Below are positions 3,778-39,947 of a DNA stretch of 42,709 nucleotides, piece after piece. The stretch spans positions 1-42,709 of the forward strand of contig NZ_SBIV01000013.1 of the NCBI RefSeq assembly GCF_004765795.1, written 5' to 3'. The first letter of the stretch is position 1, and each line of letters begins with the position of its first letter. Made by a program: the position numbers and the translations under genes. This DNA comes from Halorussus marinus (GTDB lineage: Archaea > Halobacteriota > Halobacteria > Halobacteriales > Haladaptataceae). Below the pieces are notes generated by a model, which was not told where the DNA came from, did no database searches, and saw nothing but the letters and a program-made list of their open reading frames with translations.

Positions 3778-4225
3778 CGTCCAGTAACTCCATGCGCGTC
3801 ATGCGCTCAATGCGTTCATCGAGTTCCTCGCCCTCCATGTCCACCATGCGCTCCATGCCCAACAAGACAACGAGAGTCTTGAAGTGTCGGTCTTTCTTGT
3901 AATCGCCATCCGCGACGTAGTTGAGCCGCGACCACTCATCGTTCATGGGGTCTACGAGCTCGTCGGGGAGATAGAACGAGACGCCATTCCATTCCTGCTT
4001 GACGTTCTCAACGTTCCATGCGCTCCCCGCGGGCAAGCCGTTCTCCTCGTTCTCCTCGCTCCCGTCGCGGTTTTCGTTCTGGTCGTTCATGTCGCGCATG
4101 TCGCGGTCTGAACGCATGTCGGTCTCTTCCCGCTGGTCGTTCCTCTCGGACTGTTCGTCGACGCCGTCGTCCTCGTCCTCGAAGCGCTTCGCTAGCCGAT
4201 CCTGGACGTCGTCTCCATTAGGCAT
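3770..4225 (-). CDS. Acidic ParA-partner candidate
   Basis: 151 aa from ATG 4225, which overlaps the parA stop by 8 bp (an earlier start would run further into parA). Residues 1-70 are extremely acidic and low in complexity (repeated D, E, R, N). The remainder contains FYLPDELVDPMNDEW and a helical segment ending in ERMTRMELLDDG. It sits directly downstream of parA, where the centromere-binding partner is normally encoded, but shows no ParB nuclease motif or clear RHH fold. Role by inference only. Its C-terminus appears shared with the HNH protein that follows. Confidence 0.6.
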   Translation of the reverse strand: MPNGDDVQDRLAKRFEDEDDGVDEQSERNDQREETDMRSDRDMRDMNDQNENRDGSEENEENGLPAGSAWNVENVKQEWNGVSFYLPDELVDPMNDEWSRLNYVADGDYKKDRHFKTLVVLLGMERMVDMEGEELDERIERMTRMELLDDG

Positions 4226-5003
4226 GGCTGGCCACCTCCTCGGCAACCGCGAGGTAGACGTCCGTCATGTCGGTGTCCTCGGCGTCCTCTCCGAAGATAG
4301 ACCCGCCCTGTTTGATCGAGCGCGCGATCGCGACGCGGTGAGCGATCTCGAATACGGGGCATCGGCCGCCGAACGTGTCTTCGAACCAGTCGAGCATCCG
4401 CTGTTGCTCGTTGTCAAGCGGGTAGTTGACGTCGGAGACGAGGATGCCGCGCTCCTTGATCTGGGTGTCGTAGCGTTGTTCGAGGGTTTCGATCTGGTTG
4501 AGGAGATGCTCGAGTGCGAGCTGCATCATCTCGTCTGTCTCGACTGGGACGAGAATGCCCTCGCAGGCCAGGAGGACGTTGTCGTTGATCGGGCCGAGCG
4601 ATGGGGGCGCGTCGACGACTGCGATGTCCCAGTCGTCGATACCGCCGTGGTCGAAGAGGAGGCTGAGGCGTTCGCGGGGCTTCCAGCCGGCAGCGATGAG
4701 CTCCTGCTCGGCGCGAAACATGTCGACGTGTGCTGGGAGGATGTCGAATTCGGGGTGGCTGACGGCGAGGTCGCGGCCGATGTCGTAGTCGCGGGGTTCT
4801 TTGAGTGCTTCGAAGAGGCTGTCGGCGTTGGTGGTGTAGGCGTTGTTGTGTCCGAGGCGGTTCGTGAGGTAGCCTTGGGGGTCGGCGTCGACGGCGATCA
4901 CGTCGTGGCCGAGTTCGGCGAGTGCGCCGGCGACGTTGATGGTGTTTGTGGTCTTTGCGACTCCGCCTTTCTGGTTGGTGATTCCGATACGCATGTCGTT
5001 CAT
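4218..5003 (-). CDS. parA: ParA-family partition ATPase
   Basis: 261 aa. Residues 12-18 form the deviant Walker A box KGGVAKT, followed by VDADPQG (38-44) and a DIAVVDAPPSLG stretch at the Walker B region, all diagnostic of ParA/Soj/MinD-type ATPases. Length is normal for the stand-alone, non-HTH ParA type. A TATA-like CTTTATC (minus strand, 5033-5027) lies about 27 nt upstream of ATG 5003, fitting leaderless transcription from this first ATG rather than the internal ATG nine bases in. Role: ATP-dependent DNA segregation on the nucleoid. Its presence beside an integrase suggests an episomal as well as an integrated state. Confidence 0.92.
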   Translation of the reverse strand: MNDMRIGITNQKGGVAKTTNTINVAGALAELGHDVIAVDADPQGYLTNRLGHNNAYTTNADSLFEALKEPRDYDIGRDLAVSHPEFDILPAHVDMFRAEQELIAAGWKPRERLSLLFDHGGIDDWDIAVVDAPPSLGPINDNVLLACEGILVPVETDEMMQLALEHLLNQIETLEQRYDTQIKERGILVSDVNYPLDNEQQRMLDWFEDTFGGRCPVFEIAHRVAIARSIKQGGSIFGEDAEDTDMTDVYLAVAEEVASHA

Positions 5004-35649: not shown

Positions 35650-35855
35650 ACAAATACGACGAAACTGTCACGCGGCGCCGCTGGTTCCCAGAAGACGCCT
35701 CGTACACGGACGCGATCGCGTCTGTCGAAGACGAACTTCGCGACCGCCACGATATCGAGGAGATCGATTCGGTAGCGGCAGAAACGGTGCTGAGTGGGGA
35801 CTGGCGAGTCACTGTCGTTGGTGTTCTCGAGTCCTCAGAGGAGGATGACGAATGA
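35646..35855 (+). CDS. Hypothetical tail-module protein
   Basis: 69 aa (ATGA overlaps on both sides). It has a basic, aromatic start (MNKYDETVTRRRWFPEDASY), then a helix and a strand pair (GDWRVTVVGVLES), acidic end. No family recognised; it immediately precedes the tail tube gene. Confidence 0.55.
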   Translation: MNKYDETVTRRRWFPEDASYTDAIASVEDELRDRHDIEEIDSVAAETVLSGDWRVTVVGVLESSEEDDE

Positions 35856-36775
35856 CGGGTGCCGGATCAGCCAGCCTTGCGTTCGCGAAGGAGGAGACGT
35901 TCGCGGACACGCTCGTTGACAGCGACACCGATGGCAACCCCGAGTACTACAAGTTCGGGCGGAATCCGACTCTCACCGAGCTCGAACTCGCAAACACGCT
36001 CCAGCGGATGCGGGAAGGCGATAAAGTCGAGTCTGTCGACAGCGTCGCGCAGAATCTCGAAGGTGCGGTGTCGGTTGAAGCGACGGTGAGTGCGGACGTT
36101 CACGCTGACGTCCACGATCTCGTGTTCAACGACGGCGGCACCGGCTTCACGTCAGGACGCGCAGCATCAGGGCGGATCTATGCTGGTGTCGATTACCTTA
36201 CCGGGACGGCTGAGCGAGAGCTGATCGGGTGCATCCCGTTGGAGTACTCGGTATCCTACGAACAGGGTGGCATGGTCACGTACAGTCTCTCGATGGCGTA
36301 CGCTGACGAAAACCTCGCCACCTCGATAACACCCTCGAATATCACGGGCCCGAGCGATGGTGGTGATGTTCCGTTCCACGGGTTCACACTCACCGTCGAC
36401 GGTGCGACTGTCGCAAAGCTCCAGTCCGCGGAGCTATCCATCTCTGACATCGCACGCTACCAGTGGGGCGCCGACCGCAACCCAGTGGATGCAGTTATCG
36501 CAACACCAACGACATCACTTACCGTCGATGCCATCTTCACGGGCCCAGACAGGACAGAGATCGCGTACGGTGCTGCGGACGCAACGAGCCCTCAGGACTC
36601 ACTGACTTCTGTGTCGGGGTCCGCCGATCTTTCCGCCGCTGGTTCGTCCGTCACGACGTACAATCTTCCAAAGCTGAAGCCTGATACCCACTCGTGGAAT
36701 GACCTCATCACCGGTGATGCAGACGCGTCGGAAGACACAGAGTTCCACGTCAACGGTGGGGTCACTGTCGCCTGA
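35852..36775 (+). CDS. Major tail tube protein
   Basis: 307 aa. Strand-rich with repeated patterns (SVEATVSADVHADVHDLVFND, IPLEYSVSYEQGGMVTYSLSMAYADEN, GFTLTVDGATVAKLQSAELSI) and positioned directly upstream of the chaperone gene, the normal siphovirus order tube - chaperone - tape measure. No contractile sheath gene is seen, which supports a siphovirus-like tail. Role: hexamer rings stacking into the tube. Confidence 0.7.
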   Translation: MTGAGSASLAFAKEETFADTLVDSDTDGNPEYYKFGRNPTLTELELANTLQRMREGDKVESVDSVAQNLEGAVSVEATVSADVHADVHDLVFNDGGTGFTSGRAASGRIYAGVDYLTGTAERELIGCIPLEYSVSYEQGGMVTYSLSMAYADENLATSITPSNITGPSDGGDVPFHGFTLTVDGATVAKLQSAELSISDIARYQWGADRNPVDAVIATPTTSLTVDAIFTGPDRTEIAYGAADATSPQDSLTSVSGSADLSAAGSSVTTYNLPKLKPDTHSWNDLITGDADASEDTEFHVNGGVTVA

Positions 36776-36777
36776 TC

Positions 36778-37329
36778 ATGCCACTGAAAGAGGAGTACAT
36801 CGACTTCGACGAAGAGATACAGCGCCTCGAGCAGAAACGAGACGCGCTAGCAGAACAAGTCGCGGCCCTCGACGAGGATGTCCCGAAACGCGAGGGACTT
36901 GCTGAGCAAGGCCAAGACATCGACGTCTGCCTCCGTGGCCTCCGCTGGGCGCGAGACGACGCAGCCACCGACGATGGAGTCCCCGTTTGGAGCGACGATG
37001 TCGACGGAGTCACGCTCGCCGGCCTCACTGGTGGCGAGTTCGGGCACGTTGAGGACACTGTTGTCGCTGACGCACTTGATCGCGGAGACACTCGGGTTGG
37101 CGAAGGGCTTACTCGGATCTACTACGTCGCAAAAGCAACTCAGCAGGCTCCGTATGTCGATGGATCGATGAGCTTCACCGATAGCGTTCAGGCAGTTAGC
37201 CAGCTCCCCGTGCCGTTCCTGAAGTGGGCCGACGATCGTGTCGACGAGCTCACGACGATCGGGGGCGACGAGGGAAACTCCTTCGGCGATTTAGTCGCGG
37301 AGAAGCAAGCCAACCAGGACGAGACCTGA
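36778..37329 (+). CDS. Tail assembly chaperone, zero-frame product (gpG-like)
   Basis: 183 aa. N-terminal coiled coil (EEIQRLEQKRDALAEQVAALDED), then a globular acidic middle, ending VAEKQANQDET. It sits between the tail tube and the tape-measure position, as gpG/gpGT genes do. A slippery heptamer lies in frame at 37272-37278, after which the -1 frame stays open to 37463, giving a 228-aa fusion (167 + 61 aa). Both products normally coat the tape measure protein during tail growth. Confidence 0.7.
   Translation: MPLKEEYIDFDEEIQRLEQKRDALAEQVAALDEDVPKREGLAEQGQDIDVCLRGLRWARDDAATDDGVPVWSDDVDGVTLAGLTGGEFGHVEDTVVADALDRGDTRVGEGLTRIYYVAKATQQAPYVDGSMSFTDSVQAVSQLPVPFLKWADDRVDELTTIGGDEGNSFGDLVAEKQANQDET
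37272..37278 (+). promoter_or_regulatory. -1 programmed frameshift slippery heptamer
   Basis: GGGAAAC is arranged in frame as G-GGA-AAC, the X XXY YYZ form used by lambda G-T genes (GGGAAAG). The GCGA/TCGC pair (37286-37289, 37295-37298) starts 7 nt downstream; CTCC (37278-37281) and GGAG (37299-37302) can extend it through a bulge. The only other nearby candidate (C-GGG-GGC at 37260-37266) is poorer. Confidence 0.75.
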
Positions 37330-37463
37330 TCTGGCAGTATGCGCGGTCGGTTCTCATTCACCAGGGTCATGATCCTCGGGAAGTCGACGACTGGGCATGG
37401 CGCGATATCGAGGCATACCTCCGCATTAGAGACATCCTCCAGTTTGGTGTCCAAGGCGATTAG
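37278..37463 (+). CDS. Tail assembly chaperone, -1 frame extension (gpT-like)
   Basis: Reached by slipping back at 37272-37278, this frame adds LLRRFSRGEASQPGRD and then a well-folded 45 residues (IWQYARSVLIHQGHDPREVDD, RDIEAYLRIRDILQF) before its stop at 37463. These are the helical type seen in T-domains of chaperones. It has no start codon of its own close to a ribosome site, so translation only by frameshift is the natural explanation. Confidence 0.75.
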   Translation, partial: LLRRFSRGEASQPGRDLIWQYARSVLIHQGHDPREVDDWAWRDIEAYLRIRDILQFGVQGD

Positions 37464-37505: not shown

Positions 37506-38081
37506 ATGAACCGGCGCGATGCCCTCACTGGTGCTGCGGCAACCATCTCCCTCGTACTTGCGGGATGTTCTGGTGAGAGCACACCAGGAACGACAACCGA
37601 AGACGATCGGGGATCTCCCGCGTCGACGGAGACTGAAAAGCCGCTTCCAGACGTTGACGTGACGGCGACAGATACCTCAGTCGGCGACGCAGACACACAT
37701 CTCCGGGTCCAGTGGCGAGGCCGCGTCCAACGCGTTCTCGAGCCCACAGGAGAAGCCGCGACAGTCGCTGAAGACGGACACAAGTGGCTGGTAATCCAAG
37801 TATCTGTCAGACACGTCGGCGGAACGGCCTGGGAGACGACACCGGTACCGTTCGTCGTTGACGTTGACGGCCAGCGGTATGAGGTATCGACGTCTCGTGC
37901 CGAGTCCTACTTTGGCTCGAGCACCCTTGAGGAGGAGGACGTGGAGTCGGGATGGCTGGCTTTCCAAATCCCGCGTGAGGCAACGTCCGCGACTATGAAC
38001 TTTGACTCCGAGCTGATCTCAGCGACGGTTTCTGCAGGATTCGAAGAGGATCAGTCGCTTTCATTCGACATCGACCAGTAG
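37506..38081 (+). CDS. Tat-type lipoprotein (moron-like)
   Basis: 191 aa. The N-terminus MNRRDALTGAAATISLVLAGC has a twin-arginine (R3, R4), a hydrophobic stretch and a lipobox LAGC (lipidated Cys21), as in haloarchaeal Tat-exported lipoproteins. A Ser/Thr/Glu/Asp linker (22-50) follows, then a ~130-aa beta-sandwich domain with strands WLVIQVSVRHVGG, FVVDVDGQRYEV and GWLAFQIPREATSATMNFD, like DUF4352-type folds. It interrupts the tail module between chaperone and tape-measure genes. A lysogen-surface role such as superinfection exclusion is inference. Confidence 0.8.
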   Translation: MNRRDALTGAAATISLVLAGCSGESTPGTTTEDDRGSPASTETEKPLPDVDVTATDTSVGDADTHLRVQWRGRVQRVLEPTGEAATVAEDGHKWLVIQVSVRHVGGTAWETTPVPFVVDVDGQRYEVSTSRAESYFGSSTLEEEDVESGWLAFQIPREATSATMNFDSELISATVSAGFEEDQSLSFDIDQ

Positions 38082-38147: not shown

Positions 38148-39329
38148 ATGACAGAGTTCAGAACCAGCAGTCTCTTAGACGTGTCCGTATCGAACAGGTC
38201 CCTCAAGCAAGCCCGGTCAACTATCCAGAGCGAGCTGGGTGGCGTTTCAATCGACGTCAACGCCTCCTCTGCTCAGTCGTCGAATCGAGTTGGCCGGCTT
38301 TCTGGACGCGAGCGTGCAATGGGCCGCCAACTCCAGACCGAGACGAACACGCTACTGCGAGAGTCACTGGAGACCACCAAGGACATCCTGAAGGAGATCC
38401 GGAAAACCGGTGCGACTGACGGCGGCGGTGGGGGAGGGATGGGCGGCATCATCCCACTCTCGCTAGGATCCGGTGGGTCAGTTCTCTCCGGCGGTATCGC
38501 CGCCAGCAGTCTTGTCACGGGGACAGTCGCTGCATCCGGACTCATCAGTGGCGGTGTTGTCATCGACGAGCTCGTCACTGGAGAGCTCCAACTCTCCGAC
38601 TTCATCACAGGGTCCGTCAGAGCTGGCGATCTCCTCACCGGCGGCCTCTCGCCAAACGATTTTATCAGTGGAACAATCGGCGTTGGCACGCTTATCGCTG
38701 GATCGATCACACTTGCATCCTACGTCTCAGGCTCGATCAGCATCGGCGGGCTTGTAACCGGGACCATCGGTGCTGGCACGATTGTTACAGGAACGATCAC
38801 CGCTGGCGCGCTCATCACGGGAACTCTCGCTGCGGGCGCACTAGTCGCAGGAACCGTGATGATCAGCGACTACGTTGCTGGAAAGATCGCTGCGAGCGAC
38901 CTCGTCGAGGACAACATCAGCAAGGAGTCTTCCGAGGTCGTAAAAGGCGACCCCAACCCAGCATCGAATAAAACCGGTGCAAACGACCAACTCACAAGCC
39001 AACCCAGCCAGGTCAACCCAGCCAGCCCCTGGCACGACATGGCGCCGCCAGACTCCGCACAGGATATCGCGGAAGGCATCGTCAGCACGCCAGACAACCA
39101 GAGCGTTGCGCCCCCGCCGGGCTTCGATAGCTGGCAAGAGTTCAACAACACCGATTTCAACACGGCCTCGTCGAACAACGCGTCTGAGAACCGCGGGGAA
39201 ACAACACTCAACATCACGTCAGAGGCCACAGTCAACGGAACTACCGAACGAGAGGTAGAACGGATCGCTGAGCGAAAAGCCGAGGAGAAAGCAGAAGAAC
39301 TCCGAGACGAGCTGACCGGAGGCCTGTAG
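38148..39329 (+). CDS. Tape-measure-position protein with decapeptide repeats
   Basis: 393 aa. The N-terminal 85 residues are basic and helical (QARSTIQSELGG, RERAMGRQLQTETNTLLRESLETTKDILKEIRK); a Gly-rich hinge follows. Residues 111-250 are 14 exact-length decapeptides of consensus x-[LFI]-[VIL]-[TSA]-G-[TSG]-[ILV]-x-x-[GS]. The remainder is Asn/Ser/Pro-rich and closes with a charged coiled coil (EREVERIAERKAEEKAEEL). By position it is the tape measure, but the repeat resembles trimeric beta-helix arrays of tail tips. If helical throughout, 393 residues would span only about 60 nm. Confidence 0.6.
   Translation: MTEFRTSSLLDVSVSNRSLKQARSTIQSELGGVSIDVNASSAQSSNRVGRLSGRERAMGRQLQTETNTLLRESLETTKDILKEIRKTGATDGGGGGGMGGIIPLSLGSGGSVLSGGIAASSLVTGTVAASGLISGGVVIDELVTGELQLSDFITGSVRAGDLLTGGLSPNDFISGTIGVGTLIAGSITLASYVSGSISIGGLVTGTIGAGTIVTGTITAGALITGTLAAGALVAGTVMISDYVAGKIAASDLVEDNISKESSEVVKGDPNPASNKTGANDQLTSQPSQVNPASPWHDMAPPDSAQDIAEGIVSTPDNQSVAPPPGFDSWQEFNNTDFNTASSNNASENRGETTLNITSEATVNGTTEREVERIAERKAEEKAEELRDELTGGL
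38478..38897 (+). repeat. Fourteen 30-bp coding repeats (decapeptide array)
   Basis: The coding segment for residues 111-250 repeats every 30 bases with no indel. Repeat units such as SLVTGTVAAS, GLVTGTIGAG, TIVTGTITAG and ALITGTLAAG share G at position 5 and hydrophobics at 2, 3 and 7. A fifteenth, decayed unit follows (DLVEDNISKE). Variation is at synonymous and core-compatible positions, so selection on the protein keeps the period. Confidence 0.85.
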
Positions 39330-39332
39330 TCG

Positions 39333-39947
39333 ATGACTGTCACGTATGGCGAGGGTGTTCTGACGTTACCGCCCGCCGACGTCGACCAGGACGGCAACGA
39401 CGAGCAGGGCGTGTTCGTGTTCAAGACGAACATCACAATCGCGATGGAGACGCGAACCGGCCGGATCGGGAGTGGGAAGCTCAGTCAGGCGAACGCTGTG
39501 TTCTCGGACTGGGTTGAGGACCAGACCGGCGAAGAGTTCGCGGGGACCGGGAAGCGCCAACAGCTCATGCTCGACCTCGGCGCCGGCGAGCACGTCATCG
39601 AAATCGACTTCCAAGGCTTCGAAGGATCCACTCACCAATGGGGGGATTCTGGCGAGGGGGGCACCGCGTCGGACGCGACAGGCGAGAATGTCAACCGGCA
39701 GATGGAGCTCCTCGACCGCTACCTCCAGGTCTGTGAAATCGACAGCCGACCGGGACATGAAGCTCTGCTGGAGGTCGGGAACTACAGCACGGACGGCTAC
39801 TACGAGCCGCTTACGGTCGCTCCTGAGCAGCCTCGTGTTGAGTTCGACGCAGAAGAACAGTCCAGCACGTTCGACGGCTCGCTGACGTTCGTCGAGATCG
39901 CGTCGCTGTCGAACCCCTACGACGCCGCTTCGCGGAACGAACGATAA
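39333..39947 (+). CDS. Distal tail protein candidate
   Basis: 204 aa. Strand-rich with phrases VFVFKTNITIAMETRTGRI and HVIEIDFQGFEGSTHQW and a helix MELLDRYLQVCEID. It follows the tape-measure-position gene, where Dit-like or baseplate hub proteins are encoded. Family not confirmed. Confidence 0.5.
   Translation: MTVTYGEGVLTLPPADVDQDGNDEQGVFVFKTNITIAMETRTGRIGSGKLSQANAVFSDWVEDQTGEEFAGTGKRQQLMLDLGAGEHVIEIDFQGFEGSTHQWGDSGEGGTASDATGENVNRQMELLDRYLQVCEIDSRPGHEALLEVGNYSTDGYYEPLTVAPEQPRVEFDAEEQSSTFDGSLTFVEIASLSNPYDAASRNER

Follow-up and report, generated by a model that had tools for sequence, protein, structure and literature searches.

Putative −1 programmed ribosomal frameshifting at the tail chaperone locus of a BJ1-like siphovirus or provirus from haloarchaea

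Organization of the chaperone locus

The stretch of DNA analysed here (the window) is the entire contig G000:C13, 42,709 bases long, from a 3.76-Mb haloarchaeal genome assembly. It encodes a siphovirus gene set, a tail tube gene among them, and the present analysis concerns the putative tail assembly chaperone gene at bp 36778–37463, for which a reading made from the letters of the window (the sequence-only reading) had proposed a lambda-style −1 frameshift. All features are on the forward strand unless otherwise stated. The zero frame (bp 36778–37329) begins with ATG at 36778 and ends with TGA at 37327–37329, having 183 codons; its predicted product, corresponding to the short "G" form of the chaperone with 183 amino acids (aa), has homologues elsewhere and matched phrog_19457, a family of unknown function (E 8e-32). 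Within this frame, a G_GGA_AAC heptamer was located in register (GAG GGA AAC) at bp 37272–37278, and the −1 frame that it opens (bp 37278–37463) runs from CTC at 37278 through GAT at 37460, a total of 61 codons followed by TAG at 37461–37463. A fusion product would be 228 aa long with the junction at N167–L168. Downstream of the slip, no ATG, GTG or TTG was found in the −1 frame of the window, and the sole in-frame start candidate was GTG 37224, situated 48 nucleotides (nt) upstream of the slip. The coordinates of the zero frame, the position and register of the heptamer, the length of the extension, the junction and the lack of an obvious start past the slip were all as the sequence-only reading had given them. 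The conserved core of the extension (the "T" part), LIWQYARSVLIHQGHDPREVDDWAWRDIEAYLRIRDILQFGVQGD at bp 37335–37460, lies 3′ of the zero-frame stop and was delineated in alignments of 41 and of 12 −1 extensions; it had no PHROG match, and no T-like domain was found in the +1 frame.

Conservation of the slippery heptamer

Relatives were gathered from genome searches plus the haloviruses BJ1 and CGphi46, yielding a set of 42 non-identical zero-frame homologues that form 39, 35 and 18 clusters at identity thresholds of 90%, 70% and 50%, respectively; they came from these two viruses and many haloarchaeal genomes. Megablast against phage records gave no match, pattern scans of IMG/VR and GTDB contigs yielded no confirmed relative, and two candidates from the first genome search (L028 and L029) were dropped as non-homologues. 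An in-register XXXAAAY heptamer was present in 41 of the 42 homologues, 37–109 nt upstream of the zero-frame stop, and was GGGAAAC in 37, GGGAAAT in 2, AAAAAAC in 1 and AAAAAAT in 1. Every one of the 41 heptamers opened a −1 extension of 46–72 codons with a common domain, and the extensions could be aligned throughout the family, with a core of GHDPR...EY.WRDLE. Heptamer and extension were retained together in all 41, the co-conservation expected under the sequence-only reading, and a separate second open reading frame (ORF) lacking a conserved heptamer, which would have spoken against that reading, was not found among the 42 homologues except for the ambiguous case of the divergent L066.

L066, the most divergent member, has A_AAT_TTG in place of XXXAAAY; this sequence lies 10 nt upstream of the stop and opens a T-like −1 frame. 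Having been found there, it led us to set aside the notion that L066 is an exception without a slip site. L066 also contains a candidate start for T, an ATG after GGAGG (GGAGGCGATG). Since both are present, either route may be usable in L066, and this lineage may represent a different solution.

In the window, the bare heptamer occurs about as often as expected (4 observed, 3.65 expected), which by itself would be compatible with a chance heptamer joined to a chance open frame, or with a sequencing indel that had split one gene. However, GGGAAAC in register occurred as one single case among the 37 chosen ORFs of the window, at bp 37272–37278, and for the last 60 codons of the 42 homologues pooled, about 0.1 occurrences were expected by chance compared to 37 seen. 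In 41 homologues, the isolated viruses BJ1 and CGphi46 among them, the gene is split in the same way, with the same register and heptamer, so that accident or indel has a negligible probability and is already refuted by the comparative data. Codon usage was examined in the same genes: GGA made up 9% of the glycine codons elsewhere in the chaperone homologues, whereas at the slip it was used in 39 of 39 cases and was always immediately preceded by G, and other Gly–Asn pairs used GGA in 0 of 7 cases. The heptamer and the open −1 frame are therefore a real feature of this gene.

A fusion messenger RNA that joins the two frames could also arise if the archaeal RNA polymerase slipped at this site, and a run of six A residues is indeed present in L024 and L030. 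However, 39 of the 41 sites are GGGAAAY, with A runs of three only, and runs of this length are too short for known polymerase slippage. In addition, slippage during transcription would not need a codon register, yet the register of the heptamer is conserved. We therefore consider this explanation very improbable.

Coding nature of the −1 extension

When related pairs were compared over the stretch 3′ of the zero-frame stop, substitutions clustered at third positions of the −1 frame, with a ratio of 214:166:406 for codon positions 1, 2 and 3; these counts are not independent because the pairs overlap. In four relatives (L011, L017, L022 and L026), the −1 frame was closed by a stop codon 3–6 nt upstream of the heptamer, and in the 31 homologues checked for starts, the 53 nt directly downstream of the slip contained no ATG, GTG or TTG. 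These observations bear on the possibility that the T part is made separately from its own start by coupled or internal initiation, for which GTG 37224 in the window, the ATG/GTG/TTG codons located at least 54 nt past the slip in many relatives and the GGAGG-preceded ATG of L066 could be cited; shorter T products may arise from internal starts in some relatives. However, no start follows the slip in the window, conservation of the −1 frame sets in at the heptamer, and in the four relatives with a stop just before the heptamer no start occurs in the next 53 nt, so that separate initiation fails to explain the conserved slip region and leaves the conservation of GGGAAAC without a reason. It is thus a very unlikely source of the T part. 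On the comparative evidence, the −1 extension is a conserved coding domain without its own start, as the G/GT type of chaperone requires.

RNA structure downstream of the heptamer

The sequence-only reading had pointed to a GCGA/TCGC stem 7 nt downstream of the heptamer. Such a 4-bp stem with a 5-nt loop is present at bp 37286–37298 (arms 37286–37289 and 37295–37298), with the spacer as given, but a stimulatory role found no support in the folding scores or in the relatives: the 100 nt 3′ of the slip folded no better than shuffled sequences (z −0.13; a second z figure was −0.45), and the stem was broken in L003, the closest relative. The z values of the downstream sequence averaged −0.49 across 37 homologues, which is within the limits given by control stretches (−0.52 to 0.13). 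The 4-bp stem is probably not a functional element. In some clades, long stems were predicted a few nt 3′ of the slip (BJ1/CGphi46; L013/L015/L018; L055/L059), the homologues concerned being L032, L033, L013, L015, L018, L055 and L059. Since these stems are restricted to particular clades, it is possible that they are lineage-specific stimulators.

Genes flanking the chaperone gene

The upstream neighbour (bp 35852–36775) encodes a tail tube type protein of 307 aa that matched phrog_18409, "minor tail protein" (E 1e-76), and was 34% identical to BJ1 ORF60. Downstream, a repeat-rich protein of 393 aa (bp 38148–39329) is a candidate tape measure protein, a label that rests on position, size and repeats; counterparts were found 3′ of the chaperone gene in L003, L005, L019 and others, and no similarity to BJ1 ORF62 was detectable. 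The next gene of the tail module (bp 39333–39947, 204 aa) matched phrog_20675, of unknown function (E 7e-10), and was weakly similar to BJ1 ORF64. The chaperone gene thus lies between the tube and tape-measure-like genes, the position of lambda G/GT, with one lipoprotein-like gene inserted. This inserted gene (bp 37506–38081), between T and the tape-measure-like gene, matched DUF4352 (Pfam PF11611) above the cut-off, and its product has a lipobox-like N-terminus; the gene sits inside the tail module. Similar genes lie directly 3′ of T in L005, L008 and L009, so it looks like a recurring cargo, which perhaps serves superinfection exclusion.

In a comparison that covered the tail module, BJ1 and CGphi46 (Graaviviridae, BJ1-like) had the same gene order with homologous tube and chaperone genes, the likeness to ORF64 being weak. 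This homology supports the label of archaeal-virus tail chaperone that the sequence-only reading had applied.

Several side observations were made on the element itself. An ORF beginning at bp 41123 overruns the 3′ end of the contig (bp 42709), and when the two ends are joined it continues into bp 1–22, with a stop 15 nt past base 1, just 5′ of an ATG at 23. No terminal repeat was found at the contig ends. The continuity of this ORF points to an element that is circular or circularly permuted. On the minus strand, bp 1979–2893 and 4218–5003 encode, as judged by eye, tyrosine-recombinase-like and ParA-like proteins, with which the element could integrate or persist as a plasmid. A second chaperone copy, 34–38% identical, is present on another contig of the same host genome (G000:C3:433511-433990; L002, L069); it also has GGGAAAC and a T-like −1 frame and adjoins its own tube gene, which probably marks a second provirus.

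Proposed mechanism of chaperone synthesis

We consider it about 93% probable that −1 programmed ribosomal frameshifting yields a G/GT-type pair of tail chaperones in this window and that the element is a BJ1-like haloarchaeal siphovirus or provirus; the comparative data support the earlier interpretation of a lambda-style −1 frameshift in a chaperone gene. The majority of ribosomes would read to 37329 and produce the short G form of 183 aa, and a minority would slip back one base on G_GGA_AAC, with tRNA-Gly re-pairing from GGA to GGG and tRNA-Asn from AAC to AAA, and continue to 37460 to produce the GT form of 228 aa. The slippage and its frequency are what we infer from the conserved arrangement. 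By analogy with lambda, G may coat the tape measure protein and the T part of GT may recruit tail tube subunits, both chaperones then leaving.

Some results weigh against this interpretation. Neither part matched a named chaperone family in PHROG, Pfam or solved-structure profiles, a profile of 17 homologues gave coiled-coil-like noise only against solved structures, and single-sequence structure prediction for the zero frame was poor, with a mean predicted local distance difference test (pLDDT) score of 47. What the two products do as chaperones is accordingly proposed from position and analogy. Furthermore, no conserved stimulatory structure was found in the window and 37 homologues; the downstream RNA stimulator that is common, if not universal, in the G/GT type was not seen in the window. 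The frameshift itself is a prediction from sequence.

At all 41 XXXAAAY sites, the seventh base is C or T, placing an Asn codon (AAC or AAT) in the A site, although Lys is usually encoded by AAG in the remainder of these genes. A rather doubtful extension of this finding is that a "eukaryote-like" slip, in which tRNA-Asn occupies the A site (GGGAAAC/T, AAAAAAC/T), is the one preferred by ribosomes of haloarchaea and that a conserved downstream structure would be dispensable for it. If true, the Asn preference would be an archaeal frameshifting rule distinct from the bacterial preference for AAG. The Asn-only A site may instead reflect shared ancestry.

Comparison with known systems

The predicted products resemble lambda gpG and gpGT in being a short and an extended form. 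The lambda heptamer is GGGAAAG, with Lys AAG in the A site, whereas that of the window ends in C and consequently places Asn AAC there; the statement in the sequence-only reading that only the bases around the slip differ from lambda is wrong, the differing base being the seventh of the heptamer itself. Further differences from lambda are the lack of a detectable common sequence family and the archaeal host, and the window case is predicted from its sequence.

Closer parallels are found among haloarchaeal viruses. The chaperone gene of HCTV-1 (Druskaviridae), also a haloarchaeal siphovirus, has the identical G_GGA_AAC (bp 83350–83356, within the annotated joined chaperone gene), the same −1 direction and extra genes before the tape measure gene, whereas its zero-frame protein has no detectable similarity to that of the window and the virus belongs to a different order. 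Predicted −1 chaperone frameshifts are likewise known for the haloarchaeal siphoviruses HVTV-1, in whose sequence we found GGGAAAG (G_GGA_AAG), and Hardycor1 (G_GGA_AAT; PMC7911831), in which the last base of the heptamer differs. The chaperone genes of HSTV-2 and the HF1 group are also thought to have two forms, but in the +1 direction, and those of the HF1 group lack a slippery sequence of the conventional kind. BJ1 ORF61 and CGphi46 HALG_00051 (Graaviviridae) are true zero-frame homologues, 24–28% identical to the window protein, with the same heptamer and a homologous −1 extension; their records annotate the zero frame only.

As relayed in later papers (PMC5009743, PMC8211752), work of 2013 listed −1 slip sites in haloviruses, including HCTV-1 with G_GGA_AAC, so the idea of such a slip in haloarchaea, put forward in the sequence-only reading as one of interest, had been predicted by then with the same heptamer. 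These halovirus slips are predictions, the sole established archaeal −1 case being the Saccharolobus fucosidase (2021 review, PMC8211752). The main texts of the BJ1 genome paper, a 2021 taxonomy paper and a 2024 provirus paper contain no chaperone frameshift for BJ1-like viruses, and other literature may have it. A frameshifted chaperone is thus not new in kind; what is new is its conservation throughout the BJ1-like viruses and proviruses, with an Asn A site in all 41. The annotations of BJ1, CGphi46 and dozens of proviruses can now be completed with the C-terminal part that they lack, and the 41 conserved sites, which include those of the isolated viruses BJ1 and CGphi46 as well as a pair of differing copies within a single host genome, make a handy test bed for archaeal frameshifting.
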